Positions 20,577 through 33,962 of a DNA stretch of 64,000 bases are shown here, in pieces. The stretch covers positions 5,881,001-5,945,000 of the forward strand of contig NZ_CP108569.1 in the NCBI RefSeq assembly GCF_036010505.1, in the 5' to 3' direction. Numbering within the stretch: position 1 is the stretch's first letter; each line of letters starts with the position of its first letter. This stretch comes from Streptomyces sp. NBC_01197. GTDB lineage: Bacteria; Actinomycetota; Actinomycetes; Streptomycetales; Streptomycetaceae. The notes under the pieces were generated by a model. It was given only the letters and a program-made list of their open reading frames with translations. It did not search any database and had not been told where the DNA came from. Made by a program: the position numbers and the translations under genes.

Positions 20577-21596
20577 ATGAACCTTGCCTTCATTCCCAGT
20601 CCGTCGACCGGCGTGGTCCATCTCGGGCCGATCCCGCTGCGCGGCTACGCGTTCTGCATCATCATCGGTGTCTTCGTCGCCGTCTGGTACGGCAACAAGC
20701 GCTGGGTCGCCAGGGGCGGCAGCGCGGGCACCGTCGCCGACATCGCGGTCTGGGCCGTGCCCTTCGGCCTGGTCGGCGGACGGCTCTACCACGTCATCAC
20801 CGACTACGAGCTGTACTTCAGCAGTGGCCGGGACTGGGTCGACGCCTTCAAGATCTGGCAAGGCGGCCTCGGTATCTGGGGTGCGGTCGCGCTCGGCGCG
20901 GTCGGCGCCTGGATCGGCTGCCGCCGCCGTGGTATCCCGCTGCCCGCGTGGGCCGACACACTGGCCCCGGGCCTCGCTTTCGCCCAGGCCATCGGCCGCT
21001 GGGGCAACTGGTTCAACCAGGAGCTGTACGGCAAGCCGACCGATCTGCCCTGGGCGCTGAAGATCAGCGCGGGCCCCGACAGGATCGCGGGGACGTACCA
21101 CCCGACCTTCCTCTACGAGTCGCTCTGGTGCGTCGGCGTCGGCCTGCTCGTCATCTGGGCCGACCGCCGGTTCAAGCTCGGCCACGGGCGGGCGTTCGCC
21201 CTGTATGTCGCTTCGTACTGCGTGGGCCGCGCCTGGATCGAGCACATGCGGGTCGACTACGCGCACCACATCCTGGGGCTGCGGCTCAACGACTGGACCG
21301 CGCTGGTCATGTTCCTGCTCGCCGTGACGTATCTCGTCGTCTCGGCGAAGCTGCGGCCGGGCCGTGAGGAGATCGTCGAGCCCGCCGCCACGGGCGCGGC
21401 CCTGGAAGCCCAGGCTGAGGGAGCCCAGGCCGAGGTCGACGCCAAGCCCGCCAAGGGCACGGATGCCAAGGCTGAGACCGCCGAGACTGAGGCCACCAAC
21501 GCTGAGGACACGAAGGACGAGGACGCCAAGGACGAGGCAGCCGGGAGCGGGGAGCCGGCCGGGGTCAAGGCGGAGGCGCAGGCCGAGAAGGGCTGA
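20577..21596 (+). CDS. lgt: Prolipoprotein diacylglyceryl transferase
   Basis: 339 residues. Lgt transfers diacylglycerol to the lipobox cysteine of prelipoproteins in the membrane. Key segments are present: IPLRGYAFCIIIG, PFGLVGGRLYHVITD, GLGIWGA, FAQAIGRWGNWFNQELYG with the signature GRxGNFxNxE-like motif, and HPTFLYESLWC. About 265 residues cover the family core; the remaining 70-75 are a low-complexity tail of Ala, Glu, Lys and Asp, which is not needed in shorter homologues. A lipoprotein substrate candidate is the binding protein at 28778-30097. Confidence 0.95.
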   Translation: MNLAFIPSPSTGVVHLGPIPLRGYAFCIIIGVFVAVWYGNKRWVARGGSAGTVADIAVWAVPFGLVGGRLYHVITDYELYFSSGRDWVDAFKIWQGGLGIWGAVALGAVGAWIGCRRRGIPLPAWADTLAPGLAFAQAIGRWGNWFNQELYGKPTDLPWALKISAGPDRIAGTYHPTFLYESLWCVGVGLLVIWADRRFKLGHGRAFALYVASYCVGRAWIEHMRVDYAHHILGLRLNDWTALVMFLLAVTYLVVSAKLRPGREEIVEPAATGAALEAQAEGAQAEVDAKPAKGTDAKAETAETEATNAEDTKDEDAKDEAAGSGEPAGVKAEAQAEKG

Positions 21597-21655: not shown

Positions 21656-22531
21656 TCAGATGCCCCGGCGCTCCGCGAGGTCCAGCGTGCGCCGGGCCCC
21701 CGCCACCACCGCCGCATCCACGAAGCGGCCGTCGGGGAGCGCCAGCGCCCCCTCGTCGGTGGACGCGGCCAGCACGATGTCCCGCGCCGCCCGGACCTCC
21801 GCCGCTGTGGGCAGATACGCCTGCTCGATCACCGGCAGCTGCCTCGGATGGATCGCCGCGCGCCCCAGGAATCCCAGCGCCCGGCCCCGTGCGCAGGACG
21901 CCGCGAGCCCGTCCAGATCGCGTACGTCCGCGTACACCGACTGAGCCGGCGGGGCCAGTCCCGCCGCCCGCGCCGCGACCACCGCGCGGCTCCGCGGCCA
22001 GGCGAGGCCCGCCTCGTCGTACACGCCGAGATCCGCCCGTAGGTCCGCCTCGCCGAGAGCCAGTCCGCACACCGCCGGGGAGGCCGTGGCGATCTCGTAG
22101 GCACGTTCCACACCGAGCGCCGACTCCAGTATCGGATAGAGCGGTACGCCTTCCCGGCCCGCGGCGGCCGCCCAGTCGGCCACTCTGCGCACCTCCGCCG
22201 GCCCGTTGGCCTTCGGCAGCCGCAGCCCCGCCAGCCCCGGCAGTCCGGCGACGGCTTGTACGTCCGCCTCAGCGAGCGGACCGTCCAGGGCGTTGATGCG
22301 GACATGGACCGGCGAGGGCCCGGGGACCAGGTCGGCGAGGAGTTCGGCGGTGGCCTCGCGTGCGTACGCCTTGCGGTCGGGCGCGACCGCGTCCTCCAGA
22401 TCGACCAGCACCACATCGGCGCCGGCCGCCAGCGCCCTCGCCACCACAGCGGGCCGGTCGCCCGGTACGTACAACCAGGTCAGTACGGTCTGCGCCGGCC
22501 TGCGCGCGGGCAGTTCCTCCGACACGCTCAC
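21656..22531 (-). CDS. HpcH/HpaI-CitE type CoA-ester lyase
   Basis: 291 residues from GTG 22531, overlapping the stop of the CoA-transferase gene (GTGA). The CitE-like barrel begins TWLYVPGDRP. Later motifs include VVLVDLEDAVAPDRK with the metal-linked acids, VRINALDGP with the CoA-binding Arg, LRLPKANG, YPILESALGV with the metal-ligand Glu, and GLALGEADLRADLG. Such enzymes cleave citramalyl-, malyl- or hydroxymethylglutaryl-type CoA esters. Together with the upstream CaiB protein it could activate and cleave a hydroxy-acid, but the substrate is not determined. Last gene of the minus-strand operon. Confidence 0.85.
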   Translation of the reverse strand: MSVSEELPARRPAQTVLTWLYVPGDRPAVVARALAAGADVVLVDLEDAVAPDRKAYAREATAELLADLVPGPSPVHVRINALDGPLAEADVQAVAGLPGLAGLRLPKANGPAEVRRVADWAAAAGREGVPLYPILESALGVERAYEIATASPAVCGLALGEADLRADLGVYDEAGLAWPRSRAVVAARAAGLAPPAQSVYADVRDLDGLAASCARGRALGFLGRAAIHPRQLPVIEQAYLPTAAEVRAARDIVLAASTDEGALALPDGRFVDAAVVAGARRTLDLAERRGI

Positions 22532-23772
22532 CTGACCGCACCCGACTCCCGCAGGGCCGCGATGTCGGCGGGTTCCAGGCCGATCCCGGTGAGTACGGCG
22601 TCGGTGTCGGCGCCGTGCGGCCGCCCCGCCCATTTGATGGCGCCCGGTGTCCCGGAGAGCCGGAAGAGGACGTTCTGCATCCTGATGGTGCCCAGCTCCT
22701 CGTCGGGAACCTCCGCGATCGTGCCCAGCGCCTTGTACTGCGGGTCCGCCATGACATCGCCGATCTCGTAGACCGGCGCGATGGCCGCCTGCGCCTCCTC
22801 GAACGCTTTCACCACATCGGCCCGGTCGTGCCGGGCTATCCAGTCGCCGACCGCCGCGTCCAGCTCGTCCGCGTGGCGGGCGCGCTGCGCCCCGGACCCG
22901 AACCACGGCTCGTCGATGAACTCGGGCCGTCCCACCAGCCGCATCACCCGCTCCGCGATCGACTGGGCCGACGTGGAGACCGCCACCCAACTGCCGTCGC
23001 GGGTGCGGTAGGTGTTGCGCGGCGCGTTGTTGTTCGACCGGTTTCCGGTGCGCGGCTGTACGTAGCCGAGCTGGTCGTACCAGAGGGGCTGCGGGCCCAG
23101 TACCGCCAGCATCGGTTCGATGATCGCCATGTCCACGATCTGGCCGCGTCCGGTGCGGTCGCGCCCGGCGAGCGCCGCCATCACGGCGTACGCGGTGGAG
23201 AGCGCGGCGATCGAGTCGGCGAGGCCGAAGGGCGGGAGTGTCGGCGGTCCCTCCGGTTCGCCGGTCATGGCGGCGAAACCGCTCATGGCCTCGGCGAGCG
23301 TGCCGAACCCGGGGCGCCGGGCGTACGGCCCGAACTGTCCGAACCCGGTCACCCGCGCCAGCACGAGCCGGGGGTTGGCCGCGGACAGTTCCGGCCAGCC
23401 CAGGCCCCACTTCTCCAGGGTGCCGGGCCGGAAGTTCTCGATGACCACATCCGCTTCGGCGACCAGCCGCAGCAGCACATCGCGGCCGCCCGGCGACGAG
23501 AGGTCGAGCGTGATGTTGCGCTTGTTCCGGCCCAGCAGCTTCCACCACAGGCCCACTCCGTCCTTGCTGGGACCGTGCCCGCGTGAGGGGTCGGGCCTGC
23601 GGGGGTGCTCCACCTTGATCACCTCGGCCCCGAAGTCGCCGAGCAGGGTCGCGGCCAGCGGCCCGGCGAAGAGCGTCGCGAGGTCGAGGACGCGCAGCCC
23701 TTCGAGAGAGGACGGCTGACTGCCTGCGGTGTCCGTCGTGTCCGTCGGGTGTGTGATGTCGTCGTCGTGCAT
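22528..23772 (-). CDS. CaiB/BaiF family (class III) CoA-transferase
   Basis: 414 residues from ATG 23772, preceded by GGAGGAG; an in-frame upstream ATG was rejected for lack of such a site. The family start LEGLRVLDLATLFAGPLAATLLGDFGAEVIKVE is clear, with the catalytic Asp expected in the segment VDMAIIEPMLAVLG (around residues 200-205). Class III CoA-transferases move CoA between carboxylic acids through a mixed anhydride. It is coupled to the downstream lyase by a 4-base overlap and follows the four ADP-ribosylglycohydrolase-like genes with a 61-base gap. Confidence 0.87.
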   Translation of the reverse strand: MHDDDITHPTDTTDTAGSQPSSLEGLRVLDLATLFAGPLAATLLGDFGAEVIKVEHPRRPDPSRGHGPSKDGVGLWWKLLGRNKRNITLDLSSPGGRDVLLRLVAEADVVIENFRPGTLEKWGLGWPELSAANPRLVLARVTGFGQFGPYARRPGFGTLAEAMSGFAAMTGEPEGPPTLPPFGLADSIAALSTAYAVMAALAGRDRTGRGQIVDMAIIEPMLAVLGPQPLWYDQLGYVQPRTGNRSNNNAPRNTYRTRDGSWVAVSTSAQSIAERVMRLVGRPEFIDEPWFGSGAQRARHADELDAAVGDWIARHDRADVVKAFEEAQAAIAPVYEIGDVMADPQYKALGTIAEVPDEELGTIRMQNVLFRLSGTPGAIKWAGRPHGADTDAVLTGIGLEPADIAALRESGAVR

Positions 23773-23833
23773 GAGTCGCTGCTCCTCCGCTGCCCTGCTC
23801 ATCCCCGCTGCCCAGCTCGTACCGCTGCCCCGC

Positions 23834-25264
23834 TCATACCGCCCTGCCCCTCCGCCGCACATGGCGCAGCGTGCGCTCGGCGAGCGTGTCGAATCCGATA
23901 CCGTCCAGGCCGCCGACCGTGGTGGCCAGCCGGTTCCGCAGTGGCGCGGTCCAGCGGGCCGGCACGGCGCGGGGGCTGCCCGCGAGCAGTCCGGCGACGC
24001 TGCCCGCCGTCGCCCCGTTGGAATCGGTGTCCCAGCCGCCGGACACCGCGCGGCAGACGGAGCCGGTGAAGTCGCCGTCCGCGTGGGTGAGCGCGGCCGC
24101 GAGCAGCGCCGCGTTCGGCAGCACGTGCACCCAGTGGTGGTCCCCGTACGCCGTGTGCAGCTCGTCCACGACCGACTCGAACGCGGCGGCGGTTCCCAGC
24201 GGTTCGGCGGCGGCCCGGTCGATACCGAAGCGCACGGCGGCCGCGTACCGGGAACCCGGCGGCACCACCGAGAGGCCGGCCCGCAGACACGCGTGGACGT
24301 CCTCGCCGCCGCCCGCGGCCGCCGCGATCACGGCGGCGGCGAACATCTCGCCGTACACCCCGTTCGCCGTATGGGTGAGCACCGCGTCCCGCCAGGCCGC
24401 GCCGGCGGCCGCACCCGGATCACCCGGGTGGGTCCAGCCGAAGACATCGGCCCTGATCTGCGCCCCGATCCACTCGCGGAACGGATTGCGGTACGTGGCG
24501 GTGTCCGGAGGTTCGGCCCCGGCGAGCAGATTGCGGTACGCGACCCGCTCGGCGGTGAAGGTCCGGCCGGCCGGCAGTTCGTCCAGCCACAGCTGTGCCA
24601 CGTCAGCGGTGCTGAAGTCCGGCCCGTACCGGTCGAGCAACAGCAGTCCGAGCAGTGGGTAGTTGAGGTCGTCGTCCTCGGGGGCGCCGTCGATGTTCTC
24701 GGCGAGCGAGGTCGGGCGCGAGCGGCGGTTCCACGGATGGGCGGCGGCCACCTCCGGGTCGAGACCCACCTCGGTGAACCAGCTGTCCAGCGGCCAGTTG
24801 CCGGTGGAGCGGGCGATGGCCCGGATGCCGTCCAGTGTCAGCTTCTCGACCGGCTTGCCGAGCACACAGCCCGCGGCGCGGCCCAGCCAGGACGCCTCAA
24901 GCCGTGAGCGCAGGGCGTCCCGGTCCACCGGACCGCCGCTCGGCTCCGGCCACTCGGGGCACAGTGCCCTGATCGAGGCGAGCTCCGTCGGCTCGCCCGC
25001 CGCCAACGGAGAGGCGGTCGCGCCCAGTTCGTCCAGGAGTTCGCAGGCGAGCGCCCGCAGTTGCGACGTGGCGGGTGCGGCGGAGGCACCCGCGCGGGAC
25101 GGCGCCAGATGGCCGCCCGCCGCCGTCCACCGCTGCTCTGCCACCGCGGGATCGCGCCCGTCCTGCGCCGCCTGGCGCAGCTCGTGGCCCACCAGATCCT
25201 CGGGCTGCACCCAGGTCAGCCGCAGCGGACGGCCGGTCAGCGCCGGGGAACCGGGGCCCGTCAC
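23834..25264 (-). CDS. ADP-ribosylglycohydrolase (DraG/ARH) family protein, copy 4
   Basis: 476 residues, the longest of four consecutive paralogues. About 115 N-terminal residues of unclear function precede the DraG-type helical domain. The first metal-site motif, normally GxxxGDxxG, here reads WLGRAAGCVLGKPVE, so the usual Asp is missing. The second is EDDDLNYP and the third GGWDTDSNG with Asp412 and Asp414, both well kept. DraG proteins use two Mg ions to hydrolyse N- or O-ribosyl bonds. Start GTG 25264 overlaps the previous stop. The changed first motif suggests a different substrate geometry. Confidence 0.85.
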   Translation of the reverse strand: MTGPGSPALTGRPLRLTWVQPEDLVGHELRQAAQDGRDPAVAEQRWTAAGGHLAPSRAGASAAPATSQLRALACELLDELGATASPLAAGEPTELASIRALCPEWPEPSGGPVDRDALRSRLEASWLGRAAGCVLGKPVEKLTLDGIRAIARSTGNWPLDSWFTEVGLDPEVAAAHPWNRRSRPTSLAENIDGAPEDDDLNYPLLGLLLLDRYGPDFSTADVAQLWLDELPAGRTFTAERVAYRNLLAGAEPPDTATYRNPFREWIGAQIRADVFGWTHPGDPGAAAGAAWRDAVLTHTANGVYGEMFAAAVIAAAAGGGEDVHACLRAGLSVVPPGSRYAAAVRFGIDRAAAEPLGTAAAFESVVDELHTAYGDHHWVHVLPNAALLAAALTHADGDFTGSVCRAVSGGWDTDSNGATAGSVAGLLAGSPRAVPARWTAPLRNRLATTVGGLDGIGFDTLAERTLRHVRRRGRAV

Positions 25265-26418
25265 CGGGCACCCGCGATGGCGCCGAACAGCGCCTCGTGC
25301 TCCCGGTGCCGCTCCAGATCGCGGGCGAACACCTCGCGGGTGACGGCCGCGAGCGCGGCGGCCGGAGTGTGCAGATCGAGACGGCTCGCCGTGGCGACCT
25401 CGCCGGCCCAGTCGGCGGGTACCGCGCTCTCGCCGTACAGCGCGCCGACGATCGCGCCGCTCATGGTCGCGATGGAGTCGCAGTCCCGCCCGTAGTTGAC
25501 GGAGCCGAGTACGGTCTCACGGAACTCGCCGCGGCCCGCGAGCAGCATCCCGAGCGCCACCGGCAGCTCCTCGATGGAGTGCAGCCGCGACGGTCGGCGG
25601 GCGCCCAGCGACGGCTTGCGGTACTCGGGGCCCACCGTGTCGAAGGGGGCCACCGCCTCGCGCAGCGGCTTCAGCGCCGACTCGAACCCGTCGTGCGCCG
25701 CCGCCACTTCGCAGACCGCCTCGATCGCCGCGCGGGTGCCGTCCTTCGCCAGCCCGAGCACATCACCGACCACCGAGTCGGGGGTCGCGCCCGGCTTGCA
25801 GGCCGCGGCCACCGCCGCGGCGAAGACCGCTGCCGCCTCCCGGCCGTAACTGGACTGGTGGGCGCCCGCTATGTCGAGTGCCTCGGCGTACGCGTTCGCC
25901 GGGCTGCCCGCGTTGACCAGGCCGACGGGCGCCATGTACATCGCGGCGCCGCAGTTGACGATGTTGCCGACGCCGGCCTCGCGCGGATCGACGTGCCCGT
26001 AGTGCAGCCGCGCCACGATCCACTTCTCGGCGAGGAAGATCCGCTGCAACGGCAGTGCCTCCGCCTCCAGTTCGGGGATCCAGCGCGGTGTGCCCATCAG
26101 GTCGGGCACCAGGTGGTCGGCGACCGCGTACGCGTCGAGGTGGTCGCGCACGGTCTCGTAGACGCGGATCAGCGCATGGGTCATCAGGGTGTCGTCGGTG
26201 ACGTGCCCGTCGCCCTTGTGGTACGGGGCGATCGGCCGGGCCGTACGCCACTCCTCCTTGTAGAAGGGCTCCACGACGCCCTGCACGCGGCCGCCGTGCC
26301 GCTCGCTGATGGCCTCCGGGGTCCAGCCCTCCACCGGGCCGCCGAGCGCGTCCCCGACGGCCGCCCCGATCAGGGCTCCGGTGGTGCGGTCCTCCAGGGA
26401 GGGGGTGGGCACGGTCAT
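25261..26418 (-). CDS. ADP-ribosylglycohydrolase (DraG/ARH) family protein, copy 3
   Basis: 385 residues. All three metal-binding motifs of the family look intact: GALIGAAVGDALGGPVEGW (Asp23), GHVTDDTLMTHAL, and NYGRDCDSIATMSGAIVGAL (Asp312, Asp314). This copy therefore looks catalytically competent. ATGA overlap with the upstream copy and a 4-base overlap with the downstream one show strict translational coupling. No signal peptide, so it acts in the cytoplasm. The true substrate could be an imported N-glycoside rather than ADP-ribosylated protein; see the operon-level finding. Confidence 0.9.
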   Translation of the reverse strand: MTVPTPSLEDRTTGALIGAAVGDALGGPVEGWTPEAISERHGGRVQGVVEPFYKEEWRTARPIAPYHKGDGHVTDDTLMTHALIRVYETVRDHLDAYAVADHLVPDLMGTPRWIPELEAEALPLQRIFLAEKWIVARLHYGHVDPREAGVGNIVNCGAAMYMAPVGLVNAGSPANAYAEALDIAGAHQSSYGREAAAVFAAAVAAACKPGATPDSVVGDVLGLAKDGTRAAIEAVCEVAAAHDGFESALKPLREAVAPFDTVGPEYRKPSLGARRPSRLHSIEELPVALGMLLAGRGEFRETVLGSVNYGRDCDSIATMSGAIVGALYGESAVPADWAGEVATASRLDLHTPAAALAAVTREVFARDLERHREHEALFGAIAGAR

Positions 26419-27608
26419 GAGCGGGTTCCTTCCGGGAGGACATGCAGATGGGAGGCGAGCCGTGCGGCGACCTCGACGAGGTCGGTGCCGGCCAGCTGGG
26501 GCAGGGCGCAGCCGACGAGGGTGCGGCAGCTGTCCCGCCAGGTGTCGGGCAGGGACCCGGCGCCGCCGATGGCACCGGTGAGTGCGCCTGCCAGGGCGGG
26601 CGCCGAGTCGGCGACCCGGGACAGACAGGCGGCGGTGGGCACCGCCTCGGTGAGCGCGCCACCGGCCGCGAGTGTCATCGCCAGGGCGACGGGCACCGTC
26701 TCGGCGGCGGCGATCCCGTAGCTGTACACGTGGTCGACGATCTCGTGCTCCAGTACGGGGACCAGCGCGAACGCACTGCCGGGGCGGCCCGTTCCGGCGG
26801 CCGTCGCGGTCCGGGCGAGCGCTACCGCGTGCAGTGCGTTGCGGCGGATCTCGCTGCCGTCGGGGAGCTGCGCGAGCGCCTCGTCCACACAGACCGGGGC
26901 TGTCGCCCCGCCCAGTGCGGCGGCGACCGCGGCTGCCATCGCGCGGGCGCCGTGCACCCCGTCGCCGTCCTGGGTGTAGCGGGCGTCGAACTCCGCGAGG
27001 TCGGCGGCGGCTGCCGGGTCACCGGGGTGCACCACGGCGAGTACCGCGGCGCGCACACAGGCGGCGTCGTCGAAGTGGTGTGGATTGTCGTGGCCGGTGG
27101 CGGGGGGCCGCAGCCCCGCCGCCAGATTCCCGAGACCGGCCCGTACGGAGATCCGGGCGCGCAGCGGGATCAGCGCCGACTCGATCTCGTCGGCCCGGGC
27201 CGACGCGGCGGCCACCTCGTCGGCGAGCGCGTTCCAGGCCAGCGCCAGCGCGGAGCGCACCCGCTGCTGCGGGGCGAGATCGCTGGGCCCGGCGGTGGCG
27301 GCCGACAGGATGGCCCGCGCGGTGAACGTGGCCCACTCGGCGTCGTCGGACGGCCCCAGCTGGAGCGGGGCCGGCGGCTGGTTCAGGGCGATGGGCACCG
27401 GCAGTGTGGTGGTCGCGTTCTGCTCGGCGAAGGTGTCCAGTTCGCGGGTGAGCCTGCGGGTCCAGTTGGGCAGCAGCGCCGCGCGGTGCCGCCCGGCCGG
27501 CCAGCCGGCGGCGTCACCCGCGGCGATCCCCAGGAGCAGGCCCTCCACCCGGCGGTGCGGATCGCGGCCGGACAGCTCGGCGGCGGGACGGGTCAGCTGT
27601 GTCGTCAC
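26415..27608 (-). CDS. ADP-ribosylglycohydrolase family protein, copy 2, degenerate metal site
   Basis: 397 residues from GTG 27608 overlapping the preceding stop. The N-terminal motif is kept (LLLGIAAGDAAGWPAG, Asp32), and the second motif reads SDDAEWATF instead of TDDTxxx. The third motif, GRDADTxAAxxG in its neighbour, here reads SRVADSAPALAG: the first Asp is replaced by Val332 and only Asp334 remains. That should weaken or abolish two-metal catalysis. It could be an inactive partner subunit, a regulator, or an enzyme with altered chemistry. Its reading frame is intact and coupled on both sides, so it is under selection. Confidence 0.8.
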   Translation of the reverse strand: MTTQLTRPAAELSGRDPHRRVEGLLLGIAAGDAAGWPAGRHRAALLPNWTRRLTRELDTFAEQNATTTLPVPIALNQPPAPLQLGPSDDAEWATFTARAILSAATAGPSDLAPQQRVRSALALAWNALADEVAAASARADEIESALIPLRARISVRAGLGNLAAGLRPPATGHDNPHHFDDAACVRAAVLAVVHPGDPAAAADLAEFDARYTQDGDGVHGARAMAAAVAAALGGATAPVCVDEALAQLPDGSEIRRNALHAVALARTATAAGTGRPGSAFALVPVLEHEIVDHVYSYGIAAAETVPVALAMTLAAGGALTEAVPTAACLSRVADSAPALAGALTGAIGGAGSLPDTWRDSCRTLVGCALPQLAGTDLVEVAARLASHLHVLPEGTRS

Positions 27609-28726
27609 GAGGCGGCCTGCCTGTTGTCGTTCGCTGTATCGGTGTTGTCCGCTGCCTGCCGCGGCAGGAGACCGTCGGCGACGTCGAGGATGTGGCGTCC
27701 CGCCATGGCGGGCAGACAGCTGCCGCGTACCGGCCCGATGGCTTCGGCCCAGTGGGCGGGGATGCCGCTCTCGCCGCCGAGTGCCCCGGCGAGGGAGCCC
27801 GCGACGGCCGCCGTGGTGTCGGCGTCGCGGCCCATGTTCACGGCCGTCAGCACCGAGCCCCGGAAGTCGCCGCGTGCGGCGATGAACGCCCCGAAGGCGA
27901 GGCCCACCGCCTCGGGTGCCAGATCGGTCCACGGGTATCCGCCGATGACGACGGCCGAGCGCACCGCGCGTTCGACCGGCAGCGGCGAACCGTCCGGCCC
28001 CGGTACCGCCCGGCGGGCCGCGCTGACCGCGCGGTGCAGTGAGCGCGCGGTCCAGGAGTCCTCGGGGATCACCGAGAGCGCGGCCTGCACCACCGCGTCG
28101 GGGCTGTCGCTCACCATGGCGGCGGCCACTCCGGCGGCGACGGCCTGCCCGCCGTAGATCCCCTCGCCGTCATGGCTGACCGTGCCGTCCACCGCGACCA
28201 GCCTGGCCGCCTCGGCGGGCCGCCCCGTCGCGTACACCCCGAACGGCGCGGCCCGCATGGCGAGCCCGTCGCTCCACGCGTGCCGGTGCTGGGCGGAGAT
28301 CGGAGCCGCAAGACCGCGCCGCAGGTTCTCCAGGGTGCCGCGCTCACTGAACCCGGCGCCGCGGAACGGCCCTTCGTCGCGGTCGGCGATCCACAGGTGC
28401 CACGCCGCCTCGACATGGGCGACGGTCAGCGCCGAACCGTGCTGGGCGAGCAGCAGCCCCGAGAAGATCGCGTACTCGGTGTCGTCCGTACCCGCGGGCT
28501 CGTCCAGGACGAAGCCCTCGATACGGCCCCAGCGCTCCCTGATCCGGGAGGGCTTCATGTTCTCGGCGGGGGCCCCGAGGGCGTCACCAACGGCGAGGCC
28601 GAGGAGGGCGCCGCGGGCGCGGTCCCGGAGCGTACCGGGAAGACCGGTCCGCTCGTGCCGGAGCCGGGCCGGGGGTGGTCCGTTCGCCGTGTCTGCTTCG
28701 GGGGCCGGGCCTGGGCTGCCGCTCAT
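27605..28726 (-). CDS. ADP-ribosylglycohydrolase (DraG/ARH) family protein, copy 1
   Basis: 373 residues, the first of four tandem paralogues. Motifs are GALLGLAVGDALGAPAENM (Asp48), GTDDTEYAIFSGLLL, and NMGRDADTTAAVAGSLAGAL (Asp301, Asp303), all as expected for an active dinuclear Mg enzyme. The first 30 residues are disordered-looking and specific to this copy, and the C-terminus is Asn/Gln-rich. It begins 51 bases after the stop of the lipoprotein binding-protein gene and overlaps the next copy by 4 bases (GTGA). Confidence 0.9.
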   Translation of the reverse strand: MSGSPGPAPEADTANGPPPARLRHERTGLPGTLRDRARGALLGLAVGDALGAPAENMKPSRIRERWGRIEGFVLDEPAGTDDTEYAIFSGLLLAQHGSALTVAHVEAAWHLWIADRDEGPFRGAGFSERGTLENLRRGLAAPISAQHRHAWSDGLAMRAAPFGVYATGRPAEAARLVAVDGTVSHDGEGIYGGQAVAAGVAAAMVSDSPDAVVQAALSVIPEDSWTARSLHRAVSAARRAVPGPDGSPLPVERAVRSAVVIGGYPWTDLAPEAVGLAFGAFIAARGDFRGSVLTAVNMGRDADTTAAVAGSLAGALGGESGIPAHWAEAIGPVRGSCLPAMAGRHILDVADGLLPRQAADNTDTANDNRQAAS

Positions 28727-28777
28727 GGGCTGATCGTGCTCATTTCTGGGGTTGTGCGGGCGCGGGCGCGGGAGGCG

Positions 28778-30097
28778 TCAGCGCTGGTACCGGTCGAGGA
28801 CCCGCTGGCCGTCGCCGGTCAGCTTGGAGCGCAGCGAGCTCAGACCGATCGAGCCGTTGTAGTACTCCTGGAAGGCGGGGGTGGCGATCTTGTCCTTCCA
28901 CTCGGCGTAACCGCGCACCCCGAGTACGGGGGAGGGGACCAGGCCGCCGGCCATCTCGCTGCCGGTGCGCCAGCCGTTCTCCGGGGTGCGCAGTGCCGGG
29001 TCCGTCAGCGCCGAGCGGCTGTCGGGCAGCAGCCAGTCGCCGAGGGCCAGGCGCGCGGCGTTCTTGCCCTGGGTGAGGAAGGAGATGAAGTCGACCGCCG
29101 CCTGTTTGTGCCGGGAGTCCTGCGAGACCGACAGGGTCTGCGGTACGACCCCCTGCGAGCTGCCCCGCGGCCCGCTCCCCGCGGGCATCGGCAGGACGGT
29201 CCAGCCGAAGCCCTTCGGCGCCTGCTGCTGGACCTGCTGCCGGAAGGAGAAGTTCAGCGGCACCATGGCGTACTTGCCGGCGAAGAACCCGGGCAGGGTG
29301 TCCGAACCGCCCATGCCCAGACTGCTCTTGGGGGCGGTGTGGTCCTGGTTGATCTGCCGGTTGATGACCTGGGCCACCGCCGAGTCGGCGGCGTCGAAGC
29401 TCACCTTGTTCTTGCCGCCGGCCTTTTTGAAGATCTGCCCGCCGGTGGAAGCGGAGCTGTTGACGGACTGGCTCACCGGCTCCTTCATCGACCAGGCGAC
29501 GCCGTACTGCCGGGTCTTCCCGCCCGGCCCCCTGACCGTGAGCTTCTTCGACACCTGCTCGAACTCCTGCCAGCTCCAGGGGTGTTCGACGGTCGGGATC
29601 CGTACGCCCGACGCCTTGAGCAGTTTGGTGTTCGCGACCATGACGCGCGGCTCCTGGAGGAACGGCACGCCGTAGATCCCCTTGCCGAAGGTGGCCATGT
29701 CCCAGGACTGCCGGGGGATGTCCTTGCGCAGCGACGCGGGCAGCATCCCGCGTATGTCGGCGAGGTAGCCGCCGTACGCGAAGTCCGTGAGGTCCGACGC
29801 GTCGTCATGGATGATGTCCGGCGCCTGGCCGCCCTCGAAGGAGGTGAGCAGCTGGTCGTGGATGCCGTCCCAGCTGCCCTGCACGTACGTGACCTGGACG
29901 TCGGGGTGCTGCCTGTTCCACTGCGCGACCAGCGCCTTGTTGGCGGCCACGGAGTCCTTCTGCCAGGCCAGGCTGAGGAATTGCAGCGTGACACGGCCCG
30001 AGGAGTCGTCGCTGCCGCCCTGGTCGCAGCCGGTGACGAGGACCAGCCCGGCAGCGGCGGCCAGCGCCGCGGTAAGGATCCGGGTACGGGTGCGCAT
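28778..30097 (-). CDS. Sugar ABC transporter lipoprotein substrate-binding protein
   Basis: 439 residues. A lipoprotein signal peptide is clear: basic RTRTR, a hydrophobic core, and lipobox VTGC with Cys24 as the predicted lipidation site. The mature protein is a family 1 (maltose/oligosaccharide type) binding protein with NKALVAQWNRQHPDVQVTYV and, later, DTLPGFFAGKYAMVPLNF. TGATG overlap with the upstream permease. The ligand cannot be predicted; the neighbours argue for an N-glycoside or nucleoside-like compound rather than a plain disaccharide. Confidence 0.9.
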   Translation of the reverse strand: MRTRTRILTAALAAAAGLVLVTGCDQGGSDDSSGRVTLQFLSLAWQKDSVAANKALVAQWNRQHPDVQVTYVQGSWDGIHDQLLTSFEGGQAPDIIHDDASDLTDFAYGGYLADIRGMLPASLRKDIPRQSWDMATFGKGIYGVPFLQEPRVMVANTKLLKASGVRIPTVEHPWSWQEFEQVSKKLTVRGPGGKTRQYGVAWSMKEPVSQSVNSSASTGGQIFKKAGGKNKVSFDAADSAVAQVINRQINQDHTAPKSSLGMGGSDTLPGFFAGKYAMVPLNFSFRQQVQQQAPKGFGWTVLPMPAGSGPRGSSQGVVPQTLSVSQDSRHKQAAVDFISFLTQGKNAARLALGDWLLPDSRSALTDPALRTPENGWRTGSEMAGGLVPSPVLGVRGYAEWKDKIATPAFQEYYNGSIGLSSLRSKLTGDGQRVLDRYQR

Positions 30098-30951
30098 CAG
30101 CCCTTCACCGCCCCTGCGAGCATCCCGCCGACCAGCCTGCGCTGGAGCAGCGCGAAGAAGAGCAGGCTGGGGATGGTCGCGATGACGGAGGCCGCGGCGA
30201 GCGGCCCCAGGTCGGCGACGCCCTCGGCGCCGAGGAAACGGGTCAGGATCACGGACATCGTCTGGTTCTCCGGGGACTTGAGCAGCACGAGGGCGAAGAA
30301 GAACTCGTTCCAGGCGGTGACGAAGGTGAACATCGCCGTCGCGACCAGACCCGGGGTGAGCAGCGGGAAGACCACGCTGACCAGCGTCCGCAGCCGCCCG
30401 GCGCCGTCGACGGCCGCGGCCTCCTCCAGCGTGACCGGGACGGCCTTGACGTACCCCTGGAGCATCCAGAGCGAGAACGGCAGGTTCCAGACCACGTACA
30501 CCGCGACCAGACCGGCGAGCGAGTTGATCAGGTGCAGGTTCTTCAGCACCAGGAACAGCGGGATGATGATCAGTACGAACGGGAACATCTGGCTGACCAG
30601 CACCCAGCCGTTGGCCACCGTGGACATCCGGCTGCGGAAGCGGACCAGGGCGTACGCGGCGGGCACCGCGAGCGCCACCGAGATCACCGTCGCGCTGCCC
30701 GCCACGATGAGGCTGTTGAGCGCGGAGTGCAGCAGCGGCTGCGCGTCGAAGGCGGCCCTGAAGTTGTCCAGGGTCGGGTGTACTGGGAGCCAGGTCGGGC
30801 TGATGGACCCGAGTTCCCTGGGGGGCTTGAACGCGGTGGACACCAGCCACACCAGCGGGAACGCCAGGAAGACCAGGTAGCACAGGAGGGCGAGGTACTG
30901 ACCGGTGCGGCCGGCCGTCCGCCGGGCGCGGAGCCGTGCGGGGACACTCAT
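30097..30951 (-). CDS. Carbohydrate ABC transporter permease, MalG type
   Basis: 284 residues from ATG 30951 (ATGA overlap with the first permease). Six membrane helices are expected. The EAA loop that docks the ATPase reads VTLEEAAAVDGAGRLRTL followed by VVFPLLTPG, and the FVTAWNEFFFALVLL helix is typical of MalG-type (CUT1) permeases. It pairs with the permease encoded upstream and the lipoprotein encoded downstream. No ATPase gene is present in the operon. Confidence 0.92.
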   Translation of the reverse strand: MSVPARLRARRTAGRTGQYLALLCYLVFLAFPLVWLVSTAFKPPRELGSISPTWLPVHPTLDNFRAAFDAQPLLHSALNSLIVAGSATVISVALAVPAAYALVRFRSRMSTVANGWVLVSQMFPFVLIIIPLFLVLKNLHLINSLAGLVAVYVVWNLPFSLWMLQGYVKAVPVTLEEAAAVDGAGRLRTLVSVVFPLLTPGLVATAMFTFVTAWNEFFFALVLLKSPENQTMSVILTRFLGAEGVADLGPLAAASVIATIPSLLFFALLQRRLVGGMLAGAVKG

Positions 30952-31907
30952 GCCGCCTCCTCCTTGAGCTTCTTGCGCAGGAACACGGTGAGGAACACCG
31001 CGATGAGGGCGACCATCACCAGGCCCATCGCGGCCGCGTAGCCGAACTGTCCGTACTTGAAGGCCTCTTCGTACGAGAAGAGCATCGGCAGCCGGGTCTT
31101 GCCGCCGGGTCCGCCCTGGGTCAGCACATAGACCAGGCCGAACGAGTTGAAGTTCCAGATGAAGTTCAGCGCGGTCACCGCGACCACCACCGGCCTGATG
31201 GCGGGCCCGGTGACGCTGGTGAAGCGGCGCCACAGCCCGGCGCCGTCGAGCTGCGCGGCTTCCTTCAGCTCAACCGGCACGTTCTGCAGCCCGGCCAGCA
31301 GCACCACGGTGGTCTGCGGCATCCCCGCCCAGACGCCGACGACGATCACGGCCGGGAGCGCCACCGAGAGGCTGGTCAGCCAGTCGACGTTGTCGCTGAT
31401 CAGGTGCAGCTGGGTCAGCGTCTTGTTGAGAATGCCCGCGTCCGGGTGGTACACGAGCCGCCACATGATCCCGACGACCACCTCGGGCATCGCCCACGGG
31501 ACCAGCGCGAGCGTGCGGGCCAGCCAGCGGAAGCGCAGGTTCTCGTTGAGCAGCAGGGCGAGGCCGAGCGCCAGGACGAATTGCAGCACGGTGACGCTGA
31601 CCGCCCACACGATGCCGATCCGGAACGACTCCCAGAACAGTGAGTCGTGCAGCAGATCGCCGAAGTTGGCGAGTCCGGTGAACCGCGTCGGCGTGGTGCG
31701 CCCGGCCTGCGAGTCGGTGAAGGCGAGCGAGAAGCCGTACAGCAGCGGTCCCACGCTGAGCACCAGGATCGGGATCAGTGCGGGCGCCAGCAGGAACCAG
31801 GCCCCCCGGTCCAGACCCAGCGCCCGTCTGCGCTGGTCGGGGGTGCGGGGCGGTGGGGTGCCGCGGTGGCCCGCGGCGTCTCTGCCCCGGGCTGCGGTGA
31901 GACTCAT
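30948..31907 (-). CDS. Carbohydrate ABC transporter permease, MalF type
   Basis: 319 residues. The Arg-rich N-terminus RRRALGLDRGAWFLLAPALIPIL leads into six membrane helices. The EAA loop is VPVELKEAAQLDGAGLWRRF followed by TGPAIRPVV. This is the CUT1 sugar-import class. Its start overlaps the stop of the LacI gene at 31904-31907 (ATGA), so regulator and transporter are on one message. The missing ATPase is probably supplied by a shared one such as MsiK, known in Streptomyces to energise several sugar importers. Confidence 0.92.
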   Translation of the reverse strand: MSLTAARGRDAAGHRGTPPPRTPDQRRRALGLDRGAWFLLAPALIPILVLSVGPLLYGFSLAFTDSQAGRTTPTRFTGLANFGDLLHDSLFWESFRIGIVWAVSVTVLQFVLALGLALLLNENLRFRWLARTLALVPWAMPEVVVGIMWRLVYHPDAGILNKTLTQLHLISDNVDWLTSLSVALPAVIVVGVWAGMPQTTVVLLAGLQNVPVELKEAAQLDGAGLWRRFTSVTGPAIRPVVVAVTALNFIWNFNSFGLVYVLTQGGPGGKTRLPMLFSYEEAFKYGQFGYAAAMGLVMVALIAVFLTVFLRKKLKEEAA

Positions 31908-32941
31908 ACGGACCTCGGGTTCTCCAGGTCGGTCGCCGGCGCGGTGGAGGCGCGTACGACGAGGCGGGGTACGGCGGTGCTGTGCTGCGGTGCTTCAGGG
32001 GCCGCGCCCTGGCCCAGCCGGGCGAGCAGCAGTTCTGCCGCCCGCCTGCCGCGCTCGACGGAGCCCAGGTCGACGCTGGTCAGCGGCGGCCAGGCGGCCT
32101 GGGCCAGGGTGCTGTCGTCCATCCCCGCCACGGCGATGTCGTCGGGGATGTGCAGCCCGCGGGAGTGCAGGGTGCGGACCGCGCCGACCGCCAGCTGGTC
32201 GTTGGCGCAGAACAGCGCGTCGGGGGAGGCGGCCAGCAGCCGCTCGGCCGCCGCGGCGCCGGACTCGGTGGCGAAGCCGGTGTTCACCACGAGCGCCTCG
32301 TCGTAGGGGAGACCCAGGCTGTCGAGGGCCTTGCGGTAGCCCGTGGCGCGGTTACGTCCGGGCACCGTGTCGAGCGGGCCGTTGATGAACGCGATTCTGC
32401 GCCGCCCCGTCTCGTACAGATGGCGTACGGCGAGCCCGGCGCCGCGTACGGAGTCGGCGCGCACGCTGTCGACCTGGACGTTCTCCGGCAGCGAGCCGAT
32501 GATCACGACCGGCGCTGCCGCCGAGCCGAGCACCTTCGCGTAGGCGCCGGTGATGCGGATGGGGCAGAGGATCAGCCCGTCGCTGGTGCGGTCGCCCAGA
32601 CTGCGGATGGCGGCGAGCTCGTCCTCCACGACCGCGTCGGTGGAGTGCAGCAGCAGCCGGTATCCGGCGGCCCGGGTGACGGACTGGATCCCGCGGACCA
32701 TCGCCACGTACACGGGGTTGCCGATGTCCTCCATCGCGAAGGTCAGCTGCCGGGTCCTGCCGCCCTTGAGCGAGCGGGCCACGGCGTTCGGTACGTAACC
32801 GAGCTCCGCGACCGCGCGCTCGACCCGGGCGACGGTGTCGGGGCGTGCGCCGACACCGTTGAGGACCCGGGAGACGGACGCGATGGACACCCCGGCGCGC
32901 TGGGCGATCGACACGATGGTCGGTGTCCCGTTCTGCGGCAT
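31904..32941 (-). CDS. LacI-family transcriptional regulator
   Basis: 345 residues. The N-terminal helix-turn-helix TIVSIAQRAGVSIASVSRVLN and the hinge RVERAVAELGYVPNAVARSLK are classic LacI/GalR; the rest is a periplasmic-binding-protein-like effector domain with CANDQLAVGAVRTL and DIAVAGMDDS. It is the first gene of the minus-strand operon, and a perfect twin operator lies 32-66 bases upstream of its start, so it very likely represses its own operon. The inducer is probably the imported compound or a product of it. Confidence 0.93.
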   Translation of the reverse strand: MPQNGTPTIVSIAQRAGVSIASVSRVLNGVGARPDTVARVERAVAELGYVPNAVARSLKGGRTRQLTFAMEDIGNPVYVAMVRGIQSVTRAAGYRLLLHSTDAVVEDELAAIRSLGDRTSDGLILCPIRITGAYAKVLGSAAAPVVIIGSLPENVQVDSVRADSVRGAGLAVRHLYETGRRRIAFINGPLDTVPGRNRATGYRKALDSLGLPYDEALVVNTGFATESGAAAAERLLAASPDALFCANDQLAVGAVRTLHSRGLHIPDDIAVAGMDDSTLAQAAWPPLTSVDLGSVERGRRAAELLLARLGQGAAPEAPQHSTAVPRLVVRASTAPATDLENPRSV

Positions 32942-32972
32942 GCCTGCCCCCTGAGCATCCGTGACGTGTGAG

Positions 32973-33007
32973 CTGTAAACGTTTCCAGCAACTGGAAACG
33001 TTTACAG
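32973..33007. promoter_or_regulatory. Twin LacI-type operator upstream of the transporter/glycohydrolase operon
   Basis: Two 16-base arms, CTGTAAACGTTTCCAG (32973-32988) and CTGGAAACGTTTACAG (32992-33007), are perfect reverse complements around CAA. Each arm contains the palindromic core AAACGTTT, the typical LacI/GalR half-site fusion with a central CG. The two cores are 20 bases apart, about two helical turns, so two dimers would bind the same face of the DNA. It stands alone upstream of the LacI start; the divergent VIT gene begins 223 bases away. Confidence 0.88.
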
Positions 33008-33230
33008 ATACTGAGGACCCCACCTCGGGGCGTCAATGCGGCCGTCGTGTGATCCACGTCTCAATGGAGTTCACGGAAGGTCGCATCCGGGCTGGTCCCG
33101 GCCCTTCGGGCCCCTGGTAAGTACGGCCTTCCTTGCTGGCGAGAGCCATTTTTCGTGCGTACTTTCGACTGTGTTCCCGGGTCCGCTGTGCGGAACGGGG
33201 GCGCTGACGCAAGAGAGAGGGCGGGGACCG

Positions 33231-33962
33231 ATGTCCATCATGGAGAACGAGGCAGCGCTGCACGAGGCGCACCGCGACAACCACACCCACCGGGATGTCA
33301 ACGGTGGCTGGCTGCGCCCCGCCGTCTTCGGTGCGATGGACGGGCTGGTCTCCAACCTCGCGCTGATGACCGGGGTCGCGGGCGGCGACGTCTCGCACCG
33401 CACCATCGTGATCACGGGTCTTGTGGGCCTTGCGGCCGGAGCCTTCTCGATGGCCGCGGGCGAGTACACGTCGGTCGCCTCGCAGCGCGAGCTGGTCCAG
33501 GCCGAACTCGAAGTCGAGCGGGGGGAGTTGCGCAAGCACCCGCTGGACGAGATGAAGGAGCTCGCGGCGCTCTACGTGTCGCGCGGGGTGGAGCCCCAGC
33601 TGGCGGCCGCGGTCGCCGAACAGCTCTCCAGGGACCCCGAGCAGGCGCTGGAGATCCACGCCAGGGAGGAGCTGGGCATCGACCCGGACGACCTCCCGTC
33701 CCCGCTGGTCGCCGCGGTGTCGTCCTTCGGCGCCTTCGCGCTGGGCGCCCTGCTCCCGCTGCTCCCGTATCTGCTCGGCGCCACCGCGCTGTGGCCGGCC
33801 CTGCTGCTGGCCCTGATCGGTCTCTTCGGCTGCGGCGCCGTGGTGGCGCGGGTCACCGCACGATCCTGGTGGTACAGCGGGCTCCGGCAGCTGGCGCTGG
33901 GAGGGGCGGCGGCCGGGATCACCTATGCGCTGGGTGCGCTGTTCGGCACCGCGGTGAGCTGA
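33231..33962 (+). CDS. VIT1/CCC1-family divalent metal transporter
   Basis: 243 residues from ATG 33231. The VIT family start is clear: GGWLRPAVFGAMDGLVSNLALMTGV, then GLAAGAFSMAAGEYTSVASQRE with the conserved Met and Glu residues of the transport path. A soluble helical metal-binding region with many Glu residues (about residues 85-155) is followed by three more helices. Relatives move Fe2+ or Mn2+, in plants and yeast into vacuoles; in bacteria export is presumed. It is transcribed away from the LacI operon and is followed by a perfect palindrome. Confidence 0.88.
   Translation: MSIMENEAALHEAHRDNHTHRDVNGGWLRPAVFGAMDGLVSNLALMTGVAGGDVSHRTIVITGLVGLAAGAFSMAAGEYTSVASQRELVQAELEVERGELRKHPLDEMKELAALYVSRGVEPQLAAAVAEQLSRDPEQALEIHAREELGIDPDDLPSPLVAAVSSFGAFALGALLPLLPYLLGATALWPALLLALIGLFGCGAVVARVTARSWWYSGLRQLALGGAAAGITYALGALFGTAVS

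Follow-up and report, generated by a model that had tools for sequence, protein, structure and literature searches.

What is done by a sugar-type importer, four ADP-ribosylglycohydrolase family (PF03747) proteins and two coenzyme A (CoA) enzymes that are encoded in a single run of genes? The question is raised by positions 21656 to 33007 of a 64,000-nucleotide stretch (the window) of the 7.7-Mb genome of Streptomyces sp. NBC_01197 (contig NZ_CP108569.1). Ten genes lie here on the minus strand, namely lacI, two permease genes, a lipoprotein binding protein gene, four PF03747 genes (D1-D4) and genes for a CaiB-type CoA-transferase and a CitE-type lyase, and all ten proteins pass Pfam gathering cut-offs (LacI; BPD_transp_1 twice; SBP_bac_1; ADP_ribosyl_GH four times; CoA_transf_3; HpcH_HpaI; Table 1). 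With the chosen starts, the junctions from lacI to CitE measure -4, -4, -1, +51, -4, -4, -4, +61 and -4 bases, and the open reading frame positions and Pfam matches bear out the original prediction of a ten-gene minus-strand operon with 1-4-base overlaps and gaps of 51 and 61 bases. The run is a real conserved unit with a probably dedicated repressor, and its best reading is riboside catabolism. On balance, we consider it probable that LacI here represses a set of genes for the breakdown of a small riboside, which would be imported and cleaved, its ribose passing to a kinase and its acid to CaiB and CitE. No description of a pathway of this make-up was found in the open-licence literature, the body of papers searched (subscription papers and preprints lay outside it).

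A small-molecule role is proposed because importer-PF03747 operons recur in distant bacteria, often with a ribose-phosphorylating enzyme. Such operons are found in Nonomuraea, Mycolicibacterium, Deinococcus and rhizobia, some with genes for a CoA-transferase and a CoA-ester lyase. For example, Nonomuraea has lacI, importer genes, D1-D2-D3-D4 and a ribokinase gene in one row, and Sinorhizobium and Ensifer have the order lacI, permeases, binding protein, D3-type PF03747, ATPase, CoA-transferase and CoA-ester lyase. Among 20 loci taken from plasmid records around D4- or D3-like matches (hand-chosen, close relatives included, unannotated ones read by tblastn), ATP-binding cassette (ABC) permeases are encoded beside the PF03747 gene in 15; the other five have LacI and a binding protein only (L199), an ATPase (L204), none beside (L206), a nucleoside permease (L207) and a GRP sugar transporter (L208). 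A BMP-type binding protein is encoded in L200. Ribokinase or PfkB genes are nearby in 7/20 (L193, L194, L195, L197, L207, L208 and L210), L198, L203 and L209 have both CoA genes, and L211 has a CoA-transferase gene. In wider phylum scans, 12 of 296 genomes had a D4 match at E 1e-20; a D3 match at E 1e-35 was seen in 10 of 396, every one of them in the host genus. The exact quartet is therefore uncommon outside that genus. A 'hypothetical' gene of Deinococcus, considered as D2, gave no match. Rhizobial PF03747 proteins of ~700 amino acids were considered as D1-D2 fusions and ruled out, as their C-terminal half matches no D1-D4 profile. In L198 (8958-10082) and its relatives these C-terminal ~370 residues have no convincing Pfam match; of two such halves searched at E <= 1, one gave a weak Laminin_G hit (0.047) and the other nothing.

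The ribokinase link is also present within Streptomyces, where the sample comprises 100 loci (one genome twice, as L039 and L062; loci on contigs that end early included) and genes in relatives' genomes were read with our own open reading frame picker and tblastn. Of the 96 loci having both D4 and CaiB, 59 carry a ribokinase-like gene between the two; another 36 are of the window type, with <300 bases between D4 and CaiB, and L068 has a 3-kb gap without a kinase. The complete eleven-gene set of lacI, importer, D1-D4, kinase, CaiB and CitE is found in 13 loci. Ribokinase is the best of all NCBIfam models for all five operon kinases scored, three of which pass its cut-off of 299.65 (309.8, 307.6 and 311.0) and two of which fall just under it (290.8 and 279.4); a sixth kinase, from a yegTUV-like set of Pantoea, scores 90.1, under the cut-off. 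At least four single proteins join D4 to a ribokinase (PF00294; P0016, P0026, P0048 and P0098) among the matches listed (120 of 6605 relatives). The nearest kinase in the host genome is 45% identical and is encoded in an apparent rbs operon. These kinases bear on whether the operon might instead serve another glycoside or furanoside, with the kinase of the relatives re-tuned and the importer taking up an oligosaccharide. Oligosaccharide binders among the solved relatives of the binding protein, the lack of a kinase gene in the window, and the PF03747 genes of Microvirga and Halalkalicoccus, which have galactonate dehydratase or mandelate-racemase-family genes nearby and no annotated kinase in the same stretch, are consistent with such a substrate, but the model matches of the five operon kinases argue for ribose, and we regard a non-riboside substrate as quite improbable.

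By sequence, D1-D4 are separate subfamilies. Their mutual identity is ~30%, and in a tree of 42 rows each groups, with high support, with its counterpart from Nonomuraea. This identity and the separate supported groups, each with a Nonomuraea member, rule out that the four are tandem copies of a single enzyme. Short rhizobial PF03747 proteins, 42-43% identical to D3 over nearly the full length, stand beside D3 (support 100/99), and the D4 group holds proteins of Mycolicibacterium, Deinococcus and other actinobacteria, a second Streptomyces copy and the long rhizobial proteins. Deeper placements are unsure because of long branches, and one row, StrepL069_D1, is a frame fusing D1 to D2 and groups with D2. 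By our own reading, a second D4-like gene in three Streptomyces genomes (L185, L186 and L187) is divergent from an apparent glycerate kinase gene; L186 and L187 also have a NUDIX-like gene close by.

The active-site residues of PF03747, Glu, Asp-Asp, His and Asp-x-Asp-(Thr/Ser), were located by alignment to DraG in D1 and matched by eye in D2, D3 and D4. D1 has Glu, Asp-Asp and DxDT in all 91 rows and His in 90, D3 has every site in 101 rows except Glu, present in 100 (one gap), and D4 has Glu, Asp-Asp, His and DxD(T/S) in all 101. D2 keeps Asp-Asp in 96/96 rows. Its GDxxGxPxE Glu is replaced, the stretch reading GWPxxRH with Glu in no row that has letters there. In place of the first Asp of DxD, 94 rows have Val and 1 has Leu (one gap), and in place of His, 95 have Gln and 1 has Asn. 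The four proteins are thus not the four equivalent enzymes first envisaged, D2 having lost conserved active-site residues. Two accounts of D2 were rejected: that it is a decaying gene, which is ruled out by a mean column identity of 74% in 26 orthologues and by degeneracy at the same places in Nonomuraea (GWPAARH and APLADS), and that it is confined to Streptomyces, since Nonomuraea has it. D2 is likely a conserved pseudoenzyme that acts as a partner protein, and in-frame D1-D2 fusions in 4/93 loci fit a D1/D2 complex (D2-D3 fusions occur in 2/98; computed frames).

D2 and D4, as modelled, share the fold of known ADP-ribosylhydrolases (ARHs) such as R. rubrum DraG and ARH3, and D1, D3 and D4 share their conserved acidic and His active-site residues. 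The nearest solved relative of D1 is Rhodospirillum DraG; D4, which carries an N-terminal extension of ~120 residues ahead of its Pfam domain, had no match by sequence among solved structures. An AlphaFold2 model of D4 (mean predicted local distance difference test (pLDDT) 81.3) matched DraG and ARH3 folds (best 2woc, E 1.9e-06, template modelling (TM) score by target 0.71), as did a model of D2 (mean pLDDT 72.6, low-confidence stretches including 43-84 and 141-179; best 9rfd, E 4e-06, TM by target 0.53). A rival reading makes D1-D4 housekeeping (ADP-ribosyl)hydrolases, which would remove ADP-ribose from proteins, nucleic acids or small molecules, with the importer arrangement incidental; PF03747 membership, the active-site residues that D1 shares with Rhodospirillum DraG and the absence of the importer from most Streptomyces loci speak for such a function. 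Unlike the known enzymes, these proteins are encoded in importer operons, in other phyla too, with ribokinase in the operon or fused to D4 in relatives, and D2 has lost its residues. None of D1-D4 passes the DraG equivalog (TIGR02662; best 76.5, for D1, against a cut-off of 337.05) or the Tri1 ADP-ribosylarginine hydrolase model (NF041672; best 60.3, for D1, against 490). The GNGAAMR stretch of two DraG proteins, presumably involved in phosphate binding, reads SDGLAMR in D1, with S, D, G, M and R in 91/91 rows, and by eye looks further altered in D3 and D4. From four consecutive numbers and the gene order, we take S. coelicolor SCO2028-2031 to be D1-D4, so that SCO2028 and SCO2030 would be D1 and D3. 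SCO2028-2031 (excerpt of PMC9411070) and SCO2028-2030 (excerpt of PMC5087735) are listed as uncharacterised DraG/ARH homologues, in line with a housekeeping function. Another S. coelicolor ARH, SCO5809, reverses ADP-ribosylation of RNA and DNA ends according to the excerpt of PMC11833690, which likewise favours housekeeping over riboside catabolism; recombinant SCO2028 and SCO2030 were inactive on uracil-linked ADP-ribose (U-ADPr), one substrate only, in the excerpt of PMC13036486, which does not. Taken with the kinases and importers, the model scores and the altered stretch make the housekeeping function unlikely. PADLOC models gave no match for D1-D4, CaiB or CitE, and an anti-phage defence role was dropped.

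LacI is most likely a single-operon repressor, because, in the genomes scanned, its putative operator pattern is restricted to this operon and to genomes with a lacI-importer locus. Two palindromes, O1 and O2, stand directly upstream of lacI, and the operon end first proposed, 33007, is the last base of O1. Both sites are perfect and are the sole matches in the genome at <=1 mismatch, a reversed control pattern giving 0. In 19 other genomes, a site at <=1 mismatch was present in 3/3 with a lacI-importer locus and in 0/16 without it. A similar palindrome precedes 20 of 26 other lacI copies, Nonomuraea among them (the genome of L039 and L062 counted twice), and among the 70 loci that lack lacI, none was seen upstream of D1 in the first 12. 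The best NCBIfam match of the LacI protein is the RbsR model, at 196.7 bits under a cut-off of 382.

The importer has the composition of the sugar-type (CUT1) ABC family, with two BPD_transp_1 permeases and an SBP_bac_1 lipoprotein whose N terminus has a lipobox-like LVTGC (read from sequence), and the solved relatives of the binding protein that have descriptive names are mostly sugar-binding proteins, oligosaccharide binders included. No ATPase gene lies between 21656 and 33007. Importers in Streptomyces usually share an ATPase, and the best match to the rhizobial operon ATPase elsewhere in the host genome is 59% identical over residues 19-291 of 349. Across the Streptomyces sample, D1-D4 are present in 94/100 loci and CaiB and CitE too in 91, with identical gene order in all loci where the full set is present; lacI and the three importer genes occur in 24/100 and lacI alone in 1, and the remainder beyond the 65 importer-less loci are incomplete or odd. 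The expectation that all ten genes are conserved together thus holds for D1-D4, CaiB and CitE, which are usual, and fails for the full ten-gene form, found in a minority of loci. In 199 genomes of the genus, D2 had any match in 173 and one better than E 1e-60 in 150, and in the host's order matches came from one of five genera sampled. In genome G012 (L046/L188), only D2 and D3 lie in the stretch read, ~0.2 Mb from a contig end and away from their usual neighbours.

Several observations weigh against a single riboside pathway. VIT and D1 are present without lacI, MalF and the binding protein in 65/100 Streptomyces loci, the VIT-D1 gap being 89-459 bases in 12/12 measured loci without lacI and importer. 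A near relative, G023 (trpA 97% and gltB 98% identical), retains MalF, MalG and the binding protein (90-95%) at the locus and has no lacI, D1, D3, D4, CaiB or CitE in the 18-kb stretch and no D2 genome-wide; the importer can therefore have another use. In 6/6 other Streptomyces loci (L268-L273), a further importer belonging to this family (MalF 71-75%, MalG 71-74% and binding protein 58-62% identical) stands without hydrolase genes. The window has no ribokinase gene, with only 61 bp between D4 and CaiB. The four D1-D2 fused loci may represent few events, and one D4-CaiB read-through (L058) indicates that such frames can arise otherwise. CaiB-CitE is also an independent module: both proteins have nearer relatives that are not encoded in hydrolase operons, such as those beside GntR and aldehyde dehydrogenase genes in Rhodococcus, the rhizobial CoA-transferase is 43% identical to CaiB when other relatives reach 63%, and in Nonomuraea ~580 kb separates the CaiB-CitE pair from the hydrolase operon. 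The open-licence literature yielded no biochemical results for these proteins on small glycosides.

The separable occurrence of the parts suggests that importer, hydrolase quartet and CaiB-CitE could be three independent modules co-regulated by LacI here, with no single pathway: the importer stands alone, D1-D4 occur without the importer or without CaiB-CitE (L073, L082 and L102), and CaiB-CitE type genes occur away from hydrolases. Set against this are the same combination in actinobacteria and alphaproteobacteria, the translational overlaps and the operator sites unique in the genome. Furthermore, a MalF 70-77% identical is encoded elsewhere in 14/16 genomes with the quartet but without a local importer, as against one 69-76% identical in 15/35 selected genomes that lack a strong D2 (20 of the 26 that had no D2 match and 15 of the 23 with a weak one, and with G023 not scored as a match; Fisher p 0.005, ignoring kinship among genomes). 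We think independent modules improbable, and riboside catabolism remains the preferred reading. The proposal that the hydrolases act on an imported small glycoside, not on ADP-ribosylated protein, draws inferential support from importer-PF03747 operons in other phyla, in-operon ribokinase, D4-ribokinase fusions and the operon-only operator, and is weakened by importer and hydrolases often lying at separate Streptomyces loci. An apparent phosphotransferase gene adjoins the stand-alone importer in L268 and L271 (own reading).

That the CoA enzymes degrade the acid part, as originally suggested, is possible given the recurrence of the pair in Sinorhizobium and Ensifer operons, and is tempered by the occurrence of CaiB-CitE alone. 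Shared descent of CaiB-CitE with the rhizobial pair is unsupported, since closer CaiB relatives lie outside hydrolase operons. Itaconate degradation proceeds via an Ict CoA-transferase, an Ich hydratase and a Ccl/RipC lyase. The operon resembles this scheme in that a CaiB-type CoA-transferase gene adjoins a CitE-type lyase gene and that RipC (NF038242) is the best NCBIfam model for CitE; it differs in that CitE, at 162.4 bits, is under the RipC cut-off of 375 and that the operon has no hydratase gene. A haloarchaeal CoA-transferase 52% identical to CaiB is encoded with HMG-CoA (3-hydroxy-3-methylglutaryl-CoA) lyase and isopropylmalate-dehydratase-type genes (L242, 5923-9951), a lead to the acid branch.

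A riboside pathway might run as follows. LacI would sit on the two adjacent palindromes before lacI, which are predicted in silico, until substrate or product releases it. The binding protein and two permeases, with an ATPase encoded elsewhere, would import a ribose-containing compound with a carboxylic-acid aglycone. D1, D3 and D4, which retain the residues for it, would hydrolyse ribosyl bonds by two-metal ARH chemistry, and D2 would be their non-catalytic partner. Ribose would be phosphorylated by ribokinase, encoded in the operon in many relatives and here supplied from elsewhere, for example the rbs operon, and CaiB would load the acid with CoA for CitE to split. A bolder proposal, which we hold tentatively and with some doubt, is that a widespread undescribed pathway imports ribosylated carboxylic acids, possibly alpha-ribosides from NAD (nicotinamide adenine dinucleotide) or ADP-ribosylation turnover, and cuts them by PF03747 enzymes complexed with a pseudoenzyme (D1/D2), directing ribose to ribokinase and the acid to a CoA-transferase and lyase.

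Two known systems are partly alike. In the excerpt of PMC10819704, E. coli yegTUV encodes a nucleoside permease, a PF03747 protein and a PfkB-type kinase under the repressor YegW/GgaR, the role of the enzymes being unproven. The likeness lies in a transporter, PF03747 protein and sugar kinase under a dedicated repressor; yegTUV differs in its major facilitator superfamily (MFS) nucleoside permease, single hydrolase and GntR repressor, where this operon has an ABC sugar-type importer, four PF03747 proteins, CoA enzymes and LacI. Outside the window, the host genome also has, in the stretch L190 5165-9396, a second PF03747 gene between a GntR-type regulator gene and genes for a cytosine/purine permease and a PfkB kinase, like yegTUV. 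Many relatives of the operon resemble rbs operons in having a LacI-type repressor, ABC importer and ribokinase; rbs operons differ in importer family and in the glycoside-cleaving enzymes encoded here, and the host genome has a separate rbs-like operon (own reading). Bacterial PF03747 proteins are mostly described, in the excerpts of the papers cited here, as enzymes that reverse ADP-ribosylation. If the bolder proposal is true, ribose salvage, not protein de-modification, would be the job of a large part of the family. Many annotations, and many inferences drawn about bacterial ADP-ribosylation, would need revision if much of the family worked in small-molecule salvage. The operon offers a direct test: the ligand of its binding protein can be measured, its repressor has apparently only two genomic sites, three of the PF03747 proteins are candidate catalysts, and their conserved partner lacks key residues.

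Table 1. Predicted features of the operon (window positions; scores are Pfam bit scores, and the gathering cut-off of ADP_ribosyl_GH (PF03747), exceeded by D1-D4, is 26.2 bits)
Feature	Position	Strand	Details
LacI operator-like site O1, CTGGAAACGTTTACAG	32992..33007	.	16-base palindrome
LacI operator-like site O2, CTGTAAACGTTTCCAG	32973..32988	.	16-base palindrome
LacI-family repressor, 345 aa	31904..32941	-	LacI 43.3 bits, Peripla_BP_3 127.7 bits
MalF-type permease, 319 aa	30948..31907	-	BPD_transp_1 75.6 bits
MalG-type permease, 284 aa	30097..30951	-	BPD_transp_1 61.4 bits
Lipoprotein substrate-binding protein, sugar type, 439 aa	28778..30097	-	SBP_bac_1 141.4 bits
D1, PF03747 hydrolase, 373 aa, active-site residues kept	27605..28726	-	199.5 bits
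D2, PF03747 member, 397 aa, GTG start, degenerate active site	26415..27608	-	117.8 bits
D3, PF03747 hydrolase, 385 aa	25261..26418	-	180.6 bits
D4, PF03747 hydrolase, 476 aa	23834..25264	-	152 bits, Pfam domain at residues 124-430
CaiB/BaiF family III CoA-transferase, 414 aa	22528..23772	-	CoA_transf_3 423.8 bits
CitE-type CoA-ester lyase, 291 aa, GTG start	21656..22531	-	HpcH_HpaI 123 bits

A promoter and terminator scan gave no signal above shuffled sequences. Plus-strand genes flank the operon, lgt at 20577-21596 and a VIT-family gene at 33036-33962, the names of the flanking genes trpA, dsbA-like, lgt, VIT and gltB being read from translations.

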